This document shows, piece after piece, positions 44,814-47,088 of a stretch of DNA of 64,000 nt. Location: the NCBI GenBank assembly GCA_017442805.1, contig JAFRZA010000025.1, forward strand, positions 1-64,000. The letters are read 5' to 3'. The stretch is from Erysipelotrichaceae bacterium. Lineage in GTDB: Bacteria; Bacillota_I; Bacilli_A; Erysipelotrichales; Erysipelotrichaceae. The translations under genes and the position numbers were made by a program. The notes under the pieces were generated by a model. It worked only from the letters and a program-made list of their open reading frames with translations. It had not been told where the DNA came from and did not search any database. The number at the start of each line of letters is the position of its first letter. The stretch's first letter is position 1.

Positions 44814-45320
44814 TTAATGATGTGAGTGGCTGCCTGATGAGCTGTGCGAAGCGGCGGAGAGATCCTTGTCGTACTGGTTTATGGCCAGCAGCACCAGCAT
44901 GATCAGCTCTTCGCGGCTTTCGTCAAGGACATCCACGCAGTAGTGTCTGGTCAGATGGAACAGTTCCTGGTCAACCTCGCAGATCAGGCGGTCAGTTTCG
45001 TCGTAGATCTTATAGTTCAGAGCCAGCCAGTCCCCTCTGATGGTCCAGCCCAAACGCTCCAGCACCAACTCCTGACGGAAGAAGGTGAACTGCTGCTGCA
45101 GGGAATCGACCACACTGTCATTAAGAACGATGTCATAATTTCTGAGAAAGAAGGTAAAGTTCTTCTTGACGTGGCCGATCTTCTCACCGTACTTGTACAG
45201 GTCGATCTGCGGCAGAAACAACGTCTGGTTCTCATAGGTATATACCGGCAGTTCGTTTTCATCATACATGGTACCGTCAGCGTACAGCAGACGGAAGTTT
45301 TCTTTGAAATAGTACTTCAT
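44814..45320 (-). CDS. LURP-one-related (YxjI-like) protein with His-rich tail
   Basis: 168 residues. The tubby-like LURP-one fold is suggested by LYKYGEKIGHVKKNFTFFL and YKIYDETDRLICEVDQELF; a Ser/His tail (SHSSSGSHSHH) ends the protein. Function unknown; family members include membrane-lipid-binding-like folds. The ATG at 45320 has GGGAGG 8 bases upstream; an ATG at 45326 is too close to it. It follows the flotillin gene, and the tail could bind metal. Confidence 0.72.
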   Translation of the reverse strand: MKYYFKENFRLLYADGTMYDENELPVYTYENQTLFLPQIDLYKYGEKIGHVKKNFTFFLRNYDIVLNDSVVDSLQQQFTFFRQELVLERLGWTIRGDWLALNYKIYDETDRLICEVDQELFHLTRHYCVDVLDESREELIMLVLLAINQYDKDLSAASHSSSGSHSHH

Positions 45321-45329
45321 TATCATTAC

Positions 45330-45375: not shown

Positions 45376-46857
45376 TTACTTGTTGTTTTCCAAGCCGGTC
45401 ACGTTGATGTTCTTGGTGACCTTGGCGTCATAGGTGTTGGCCTTCATGATCTCTCTCAGATCCACGCCGGTAGCTTCCGACATGGTGTCAAACACCTGCT
45501 TCATGATCACCGGCATGTTGCCTGAGACCTGAGCCACGCCGCTTTCGCCACCTGAGCCCTCATAAATGGTCACCTTGTCGATGGCGCTGATGGGCTTGGC
45601 GATTTCGGCAGCCAGCTGCGGCATGATCCTGATCATCATTTCCGCCATGGCGGCACCGTTGTACTTCTGATAGGCTTCAGCCTTCTTTTCCATGGCTTCG
45701 GCCTCGGCCATGCCCTTCAGGCGGATGGCTTCCGCTTCGGCCTTGCCCTTGGCCTCGATGGCCTCAGCTTCGGTCTGAGCCTTATGCAGGTTAGCCTGTG
45801 CTTCGGCTTCACCCCTGGCCTTGATAGCGTCAGCCTCCATCTGCGCGATGTAGCGCTTGGCTTCCGCGTCCTTCTTGGACTGGATCAGATCAGCCTCGGC
45901 TTTCTGCTCCTTGGCATATCTGTCGGCATCAGCCTGCTTCTCAATGGAAGCGGCCAGTTCCTGGGTGCGGATCTCAACTTCCTTCTGCTTCAGCTCGGCC
46001 TCGCGGTCAGCCTTTGCGATCTGCGCATTTACGGTAGCCGTCTGGATGGTCTTTTCCTGTTCCTGCTTCTGGATCTCATAGGCGGCATCGGCCATGGCGA
46101 TCTTCTTGTCGCTTTCCAGCTTCAGTTCCGCCTTCTGAATGGCCAGTTCATTGTTCTTCTTGGCCATCTCCGTTTCCGCAGCCACCCTGGCGTCATTGGC
46201 AGCCTTGTCAGCCAACGCCTTGGCAATGGCGACATCTCTGTCAGCCTCGGCTCTGGCGATCTGAGCGTCCTTCTTGATCTTTGAAGTGTTGTCCATGCCC
46301 AGATCATTGATCAGGCCGTTTTCGTCGGTGACGTTCTGGATGTTGCAGGAGAGGATCTCAATTCCCAACTTCTCCATGTCCTTGCTGGCCTTGGCCATAA
46401 CCTGATCGGAGAATGAATCACGGTCGGTATTGATGGTCTTGAGGTCCAGTGTACCGATGATCTCACGCATGTTGCCCTGCAGAGAATCCTGCAACTCAAA
46501 GGCAATTTCTTCAGGTCTCTTGTTCAGGAAGTTCCTTTCGGCCTTCAGCATGCCCTCGGGGCTGGTGTCAATACGCACCTTGGCGATGGCATCGACCTTC
46601 ACATTGATGAAGTCATTGGTCGGAATGTAGGAATCGGTCTTGATGTCCACGGAAATCTGACCCAGATGCAGGTAGTCGACCTTCTCCAGGAAGGGAACCT
46701 TGATACCGGCCCGACCGATCAGCACCCGGGGCGTTTTGTTAAGCCCGGAGATGATCACGGCGACGTCCGGTGAAGCCTTGACATAGCCTGACATCAGAAT
46801 GACAATCACCGCTACTGCGATTACCGCAGCGATGATGTAGGGAATAAATCTTTCCAT
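45376..46857 (-). CDS. Flotillin-like SPFH protein
   Basis: 493 residues. An N-terminal membrane anchor (residues 5-23), an SPFH/Band 7 domain (about 28-190), a long Ala/Glu/Lys-rich coiled coil with repeated EAEA units (about 200-400), and a C-terminal flotillin segment with YNGAAMAEMM. The layout matches YuaG/FloT, which scaffold membrane microdomains. No NfeD partner is in view. The leader carries a yybP-ykoY-type riboswitch and two terminators, with GGAGG before the ATG, so expression is likely controlled at termination. Confidence 0.9.
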   Translation of the reverse strand: MERFIPYIIAAVIAVAVIVILMSGYVKASPDVAVIISGLNKTPRVLIGRAGIKVPFLEKVDYLHLGQISVDIKTDSYIPTNDFINVKVDAIAKVRIDTSPEGMLKAERNFLNKRPEEIAFELQDSLQGNMREIIGTLDLKTINTDRDSFSDQVMAKASKDMEKLGIEILSCNIQNVTDENGLINDLGMDNTSKIKKDAQIARAEADRDVAIAKALADKAANDARVAAETEMAKKNNELAIQKAELKLESDKKIAMADAAYEIQKQEQEKTIQTATVNAQIAKADREAELKQKEVEIRTQELAASIEKQADADRYAKEQKAEADLIQSKKDAEAKRYIAQMEADAIKARGEAEAQANLHKAQTEAEAIEAKGKAEAEAIRLKGMAEAEAMEKKAEAYQKYNGAAMAEMMIRIMPQLAAEIAKPISAIDKVTIYEGSGGESGVAQVSGNMPVIMKQVFDTMSEATGVDLREIMKANTYDAKVTKNINVTGLENNK

Positions 46858-46904
46858 AGTAAGTTCCTCCTTTAATTTCTTTCAAAGAACGGTACCCTTT
46901 TGCG

Positions 46905-46936
46905 TAAAAAGGATACGGCAGTACTGCTGTATCCTT
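46905..46936 (-). terminator. Second terminator in the flotillin leader
   Basis: Arms AAGGATAC and GTATCCTT around GCAG-TAC-TGC, followed by TTTT. About 55 bases before the flotillin start. Confidence 0.75.
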
Positions 46937-46942
46937 GTCTTT

Positions 46943-46975
46943 TAATAAAAACTCATACAGCAATACTGCATGAGT
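46943..46975 (-). terminator. Riboswitch expression-platform terminator
   Basis: ACTCATGCAG pairs with CTGTATGAGT (one G-U), then a TTTTTATT run. Its 5' arm contains the ACTCAT that also closes riboswitch stem P1, so aptamer folding and termination exclude each other. Confidence 0.75.
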
Positions 46976-47051
46976 CTCACAGTTCAATGTTCGCCGGGCA
47001 TTTCTGCCGACTGACGGCTTCACAACACTTACGTGCCTGTTACTCCCTCAT
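46970..47051 (-). ncRNA. yybP-ykoY family manganese riboswitch, upstream of flotillin gene
   Basis: Minus-strand RNA of about 82 nt. P1 is AUGAG (5') with CUCAU (3'), flanking GGAGUAAC and GAGA, matching the family's GGGGAGUAG and GAGACC around a P1 with a covariant exchange. A second internal loop has GCCGUCA, a GGCA-GAAA-UGCC hairpin and CGGC, in the order and spacing of the family's CGUCA-hairpin-CGGC. Known members sense Mn2+ and turn genes on. A flotillin target is not one I know of. Assignment is by eye. Confidence 0.8.
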
Positions 47052-47060
47052 TGGAAGATT

Positions 47061-47088
47061 ATTATAACACTTCTGCAGGGGTTGTAAA
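47061..47088 (-). promoter_or_regulatory. Promoter of the riboswitch-flotillin transcript
   Basis: -35 TTTACA (47083-47088), 16-base spacer, -10 TATAAT (47061-47066), about 10 bases before P1 of the riboswitch. Confidence 0.7.

Follow-up and report, generated by a model that had tools for sequence, protein, structure and literature searches.

A conserved yybP-ykoY-class (putative Mn2+) riboswitch leader upstream of a flotillin operon in Erysipelotrichaceae

The window (the whole stretch of DNA analysed, 64,000 nucleotides from an Erysipelotrichaceae bacterium of the gut) carries on its minus strand a flotillin operon preceded by a promoter and a structured leader, the parts of which are as follows.

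47061-47088, minus strand: sigma-70-type promoter, TTTACA-16-TATAAT, with TG before the -10
46969-47053, minus strand: aptamer of the yybP-ykoY (Mn2+ riboswitch) class, from P1.1 to P1.1', supported by the covariance models R1 and R2 and by conserved leaders
47051-47047 with 46974-46970, minus strand: helix P1, named P1.1 in current nomenclature (AUGAG with CUCAU)
47041-47046, minus strand: GGAGUA, 5' side of loop L1, facing GAGA at 46975-46978; invariant columns
47037-47040, minus strand: ACAG, 5' strand of P1.2, pairing with CUGU at 46979-46982
47012-47016, minus strand: CGUCA of loop L3, followed by a hairpin and by CCGG at 46997-46994
46950-46976, minus strand: terminator 1 (hairpin H1), its 5' arm holding the 3' strand of P1.1, CUCAU (46974-46970)
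46951-46947, minus strand: U tract of terminator 1
46955-46969, minus strand: 5' strand of the putative antiterminator, GCAGUAUUGCUGUAU, 15 bp with 46932-46918
46911-46934, minus strand: stem of terminator 2, with its U tract at 46910-46906
45376-46857, minus strand: flotillin of 493 aa with SPFH/Band 7 and Flot domains, ribosome-binding site GGAGG at 46870-46866
44814-45326, minus strand: second gene of the operon, a 170-aa divergent LURP-one-related (LOR)/tubby-like protein

Both Pfam domains of the flotillin score above their cut-offs (Band_7, 72.5 bits, 5.6e-20; Flot, 39.9 bits, 5.4e-10), and the FloT model NF058507 reaches 294 bits, short of the 700 that its equivalog cut-off demands. The 170-aa protein matches LOR only weakly (0.0057) and is related to a protein of locus L033 that matches LOR at 49.7 bits. 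The promoter places the predicted transcript start at about 47054, the foot of P1.1 and of the aptamer.

The sequence of the leader is AAUGAG-GGAGUA-ACAG-hairpin-...GC-CGUCA-hairpin-CCGGC...CUGU-GAGA-CUCAU, after which come two terminator-like hairpins. A preliminary description, made from the sequence alone, had named P1, the loops, the two terminators and the flotillin reading frame, all of which are present on the minus strand. Its pairing of GGAGUAAC against GAGA held only in part, since the internal loop L1 is made up of GGAGUA and GAGA, and it is ACAG that pairs with CUGU as P1.2. This loop, GGAGUA/(A/G)AGA between P1.1 and P1.2, is invariant across the flotillin and mntP groups of leaders, and L3 with the equivalent of C40-A41, followed by P3.1, is also present, the transfer of numbering being inferred. 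In known riboswitches of the class, Mn2+ is bound at N7 of an invariant adenosine of L3, which in L. lactis is A41, and the docking contact involves A10 of L1 (PMC9190785, PMC6754395); by alignment, A47012 and A47044 would be the respective equivalents, an assignment for which there are no binding data. The fold of the window leader beats 199 of 200 shuffles (z-score -4.0), with an irregular P3 containing A-G and A-A. Solved yybP-ykoY structures show P4 and a four-way junction, both absent from the window leader, where P3 and P1.2 leave no room for them, which means a three-way junction. P4 is likewise missing from most of the mntP leaders of Erysipelotrichaceae detected with the Rfam model RF00080, and for this reason it was not counted as defining.

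Membership of the class had been proposed in the preliminary description, which had named the lack of a significant RF00080 hit as grounds for refutation. Literally, this is what was found: RF00080 gave no match to the window leader, either at its gathering score (45 bits) or at E-values up to 10, and no family in the whole of Rfam reached its gathering score there. Nevertheless, the cut-off fails every leader of the family, since none of 146 family genomes passes it, mntP leaders included, and the miss is therefore traced to an insensitive cut-off and not to the window leader. Below the threshold, RF00080 matches appear in 31 of the 146 genomes, the best of them full-length (20-32 bits) and upstream of mntP and P-type ATPase genes. 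From 18 leaders of such genes retrieved with RF00080, flotillin leaders being excluded, the covariance model R1 was built; it matched the window leader over its full length with 47.3 bits (E 7.1e-9, 147 kb searched), and the ten other flotillin-type leaders were all recovered as well, with 34-61 bits. The next match was a chance one and scored 11.8 bits. With a second model, R2, built from both leader groups, the window leader scored 71.6 bits (E 2e-16 per genome). BLASTN with the leader alone retrieved near relatives only; its weak matches (L009-L013, L015-L019) were discarded as fragments, R1 detecting nothing in any of them.

In the joint alignment of the two groups, GGAGUA, the C-A of L3 and AGAC show no variation, and the helices vary by compensation. 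P1.2 consists of A-U, C-G and A-U in flotillin leaders (strands A-C-A/U-G-U in the window leader) versus G-C, U-A and U-A in mntP leaders (G-U-U/A-A-C), so a common structure has been preserved by compensatory change; the pair closing L3 is G-C in the former and A-U in the latter. Taken over both groups, a structure of 12 pairs shows 98.3% pairing, and its covariation reaches 0.675 where shuffles give 0.29. For 35 flotillin leaders alone, in an alignment fitted to the model, 21 pairs are 89.9% paired and 17 of the 21 show double changes. Compensatory changes support all of P1.1, P1.2, P3 and P3.1. Homology to the Mn2+ riboswitches thus rests on an independently trained covariance model together with compensatory changes across both groups, and the leader is, by core and structure, a yybP-ykoY-class aptamer, as had been proposed. 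Mn2+ as its ligand is an inference, as neither ligand-binding nor expression data exist.

A leader not conserved upstream of flotillin orthologues would also have refuted the preliminary description, an outcome clearly not met. In fact, the leader precedes 29 of 30 family flotillins with at least 77% identity and none of 15 distant ones. Among named genomes, it was found before 27 of 28 flotillins of ruminant-gut Erysipelotrichaceae/Solobacterium and at 8 of 52 others, mostly Lachnospiraceae. Carriers among the latter are Butyrivibrio sp. AE3009, B. proteoclasticus P6B7 and Butyrivibrio sp. MC2013, for example; most Butyrivibrio flotillins are without it. The Butyrivibrio leaders, GAUAAAAGGGAGUAGC...GCAAGACUUUUAUC, belong to a different subtype with the same core, and those of AE3009 and MC2013 resemble the other copies of their own genomes, upstream of a CitMHS-type permease. 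On the flotillin tree the presence of the leader requires 9 changes, at least 5 of them forced by well-supported branches, which implies more than one gain, or gains plus losses. The association between leader and flotillin is thereby shown to be conserved, whereas the ligand, the direction of switching and the physiological role in the proposed Mn2+ control are still inferred. A second SPFH protein, HflK, has a copy of the riboswitch in a related genus (G149; TIGR01933, 219.8 bits, above cut-off; L160:151-1254).

R2 matches occur in 223 of 273 family genomes, with up to seven per genome. The tally of targets was limited to the best 117 matches, one of which runs off its contig, and comprised MntP (49), P-type ATPases (25), CaCA Na/Ca exchangers (13), Na/Pi cotransporters (12), PiT (5), flotillin (4), CitMHS-type permeases (2), a 553-aa membrane protein (2), ABC ATPases (2), HflK (1) and a TetR regulator (1). 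The genome of the window contains exactly two R2 sites, of which one is the flotillin leader and the other precedes a P-type Ca2+/Mn2+-type ATPase, the classic target type of the Mn2+ riboswitch.

Several side observations concern the remaining targets. Riboswitches before phosphate transporters (PiT and NptA-like Na/Pi; L007, L020, L021, L107, L108 and others) suggest a tie between Mn2+ excess and phosphate handling. Those before CaCA Na/Ca exchanger-like genes (L106, L110, L118, L127, L132, L140, L148, L151, L154, L158, L164, L176, L181) mark these genes as possible Mn2+ exporters, and the CitMHS/ArsB-like permease that follows a riboswitch in Erysipelotrichaceae and Butyrivibrio (L161, L185, L295, L299) might constitute a new exporter family for Mn2+. 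Riboswitch-like leaders also precede ABC ATPase genes and a TetR regulator (L174, L186, L168).

The partners of flotillin are connected with the riboswitch in other genomes. A homologue of the 170-aa LOR-like protein has a riboswitch of its own in G072. In genus g24 the operon is made up of flotillin, LOR and the 553-aa membrane protein, and the latter has a separate riboswitch copy in G167 and G196, where the operon genes stand apart. This protein of about 553 aa is uncharacterised and belongs to no Pfam family (L120, L165, L006, L189-L192; G000:C1:86739-88223); before its homologue in the window genome (G000:C1:86739-88223) no riboswitch was seen by eye. A LOR-family gene (L033:2733-3230) is also found downstream of a distant flotillin without the leader, so that the pairing of flotillin and LOR is either older than the riboswitch association or recurrent.

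As regards switching, the preliminary description had P1 sharing bases with a terminator and a second terminator following, and both points were confirmed (46976-46950 and 46934-46911), even though neither terminator was on the list produced by a simple terminator scan of the minus strand. Terminator 1 and P1.1 have 46974-46970 in common, and the antiterminator strand, 46969-46955, is the rest of terminator 1 and does not overlap P1.1; the presence of mutually exclusive hairpins in the leader is thus shown by the sequence. The antiterminator pairing forms when P1.1 and P1.2 are forced, yet it also appears in the free minimum-energy fold (-60.4 kcal/mol for the full leader when free, -59.7 kcal/mol with P1.1 forced, the antiterminator being present in both). 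Therefore, the fold alone cannot prove a Mn2+-dependent choice and, the antiterminator being already as stable as the terminators in the free fold, the direction of switching rests on the cotranscriptional order. In 15 of 18 two-hairpin orthologues the native antiterminator duplex beats shuffles (P of 0.032 or less), a result which likeness between the two hairpins could inflate. A relay from the antiterminator to terminator 2, supported in most but not all two-hairpin orthologues, is accordingly regarded as likely without having been shown. Leaders of the g3 genus have terminator 1 only, and in some genera the hairpin overlapping P1.1 lacks a U tract, in which case terminator 2 would be the sole terminator.

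In the established mechanism, P1.1 is stabilised by Mn2+, by which the terminator is blocked and the gene turned ON (PMC6754395, PMC11087558). By analogy, under excess cytosolic Mn2+ L1 would dock on L3 and stabilise P1.1, whose 3' strand, CUCAU, would then be withheld from terminator 1; the freed segment 46969-46955 could pair with 46932-46918 in terminator 2, whose 5' arm this is, terminator 2 would be broken and flotillin would be made. Without Mn2+, terminator 1 and next terminator 2 would form. A yybP-ykoY Mn2+ riboswitch acting as a transcriptional ON switch of the flotillin-LOR operon is, overall, held with high confidence as the reading of the locus, in which ligand and direction are inferred.

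Three other explanations have to be considered. The first is that the aptamer, while of yybP-ykoY type, responds here mainly to something other than Mn2+, such as Ca2+, divalent cations in general or a phosphate-linked signal. In its favour, phosphate transporters (Na/Pi and PiT) and Na/Ca exchangers are among the targets in the family, and the pneumococcal mgtA riboswitch has been described as Mn/Ca-sensing (PMC11434433). However, MntP is the commonest target, the Mn2+-contacting core (GGAGUA and the C-A of L3) is invariant and common to mntP leaders, and the sister copy in the window genome precedes a P-ATPase of the classic target type, all of which make this explanation unlikely. The second takes the riboswitch as real and flotillin as a passenger, the switch serving another gene or lacking physiological meaning. 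The Erysipelotrichaceae cases could all go back to a single ancient gain with subsequent descent, and the scarcity of the leader among Butyrivibrio flotillins points the same way. Against this, flotillin comes first in the operon, and within a diverse clade of flotillins the leader has been retained by 28 of 29. It is also present in Lachnospiraceae, with the forced changes mentioned above, and operon partners and HflK have copies of their own in other genomes; this possibility is also considered improbable. The third, an ordinary terminator leader or independent small RNA resembling the motif by chance, could appeal to the silence of RF00080 and to a best Rfam family (SSRC10) of only 14.5 bits, but it is contradicted by the E-value of 7e-9 with an independent model, by the covariation, by the retention of the leader before flotillin in dozens of species and by SSRC10 itself, which has the same core upstream of a calcium transporter gene, and is all but excluded.

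Returning to the Mn2+-responsive reading, the pairing of riboswitch and flotillin in dozens of related species and, separately, in some Butyrivibrio suggests that the membrane is probably remodelled at Mn2+ excess. The favoured role, inferred and judged slightly more likely to be wrong than right, is that flotillin, together with its lipid-binding-like partner, acts as a scaffold or stabiliser for membrane proteins needed at Mn2+ excess, for example the Mn2+-exporting P-ATPase with the sister riboswitch. In B. subtilis, FloT and FloA co-purify with MeeF/MeeY, which are Mn2+ transporters and in whose absence FtsH turns essential (PMC10550928). HflK is a modulator of FtsH. The exclusion of FloT from mycobacterial Zn efflux foci (PMC9374683) counts against a general efflux scaffold, and it is not established that flotillin takes part in metal efflux. 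In a bolder reading, Mn2+ excess would trigger an RNA-controlled membrane-organisation response in these Firmicutes, where SPFH proteins (flotillin in Erysipelotrichaceae and some Butyrivibrio, HflK in another genus), the LOR/tubby-like protein and the uncharacterised membrane protein would form a Mn2+-tolerance module beside the classical exporters; this reading is judged about as likely to be right as wrong.

Little is known about which signals set flotillin levels in bacteria and which stress flotillins serve. A conserved Mn2+ riboswitch would give a testable answer in one clade, namely that flotillin is demanded at high cytosolic Mn2+. It would also take the regulon of the Mn2+ riboswitch beyond transport and into membrane organisation, which fits the co-purification of FloT/FloA. 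Moreover, the RF00080 cut-off hides widespread Mn2+ riboswitches, as R2 finds them in 223 of 273 genomes and RF00080 in 0 of 146. The preliminary description had considered a Mn2+-controlled flotillin to be new, and the literature searched, which did not cover the target-gene tables of Dambach 2015 and Price 2015, yielded neither a link between the Mn2+ riboswitch and flotillin nor any flotillin under Mn2+ control. What is new is the flotillin target, the Rfam-invisible subtype and, probably, the two-terminator relay, the aptamer class being already known.

Among known systems, the best Rfam match of the window leader is SSRC10 (RF02617), a Streptococcus sRNA, over window positions 46943-47052. 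With 14.5 bits against a gathering score of 56 bits, it was rejected as the identity of the leader. SSRC10 nevertheless resembles it in the core, GGGAGUAG...CCGUC...CCGG...GAGAC, and in the accompanying terminator, and it lies upstream of a calcium transporter gene, while differing in that it is filed as a small RNA and has no flotillin; it is probably the Mn2+ riboswitch of mgtA-type ATPases in Streptococcus, wrongly entered as an sRNA. L. lactis yoaB and Streptococcus mgtA, of the RF00080 class, share with the window leader L1 (GGAGUA/GAGA), L3 with C-A, the P1.1 switch helix overlapping a terminator and, as inferred for the window, the transcriptional ON logic. In contrast to them, the window leader lacks P4, its P1.2 starts with A-U and not G-C, it lies below RF00080 detection, it has a second terminator and possibly a relay antiterminator, and its gene is a flotillin, not a transporter. 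The mntP and P-ATPase leaders of the family (L049-L067) have a homologous aptamer, the model trained on them detecting the window leader. In L3, GUCAACA is found in mntP leaders and CGUCA in flotillin leaders; the former mostly contain one terminator, the latter often both terminator 1 and terminator 2. Finally, bacterial FloT/FloA operons have Band_7 plus Flot in common with the window flotillin, with a weak match to NF058507, and the window operon differs from them in that the partner of flotillin is a LOR-like protein.
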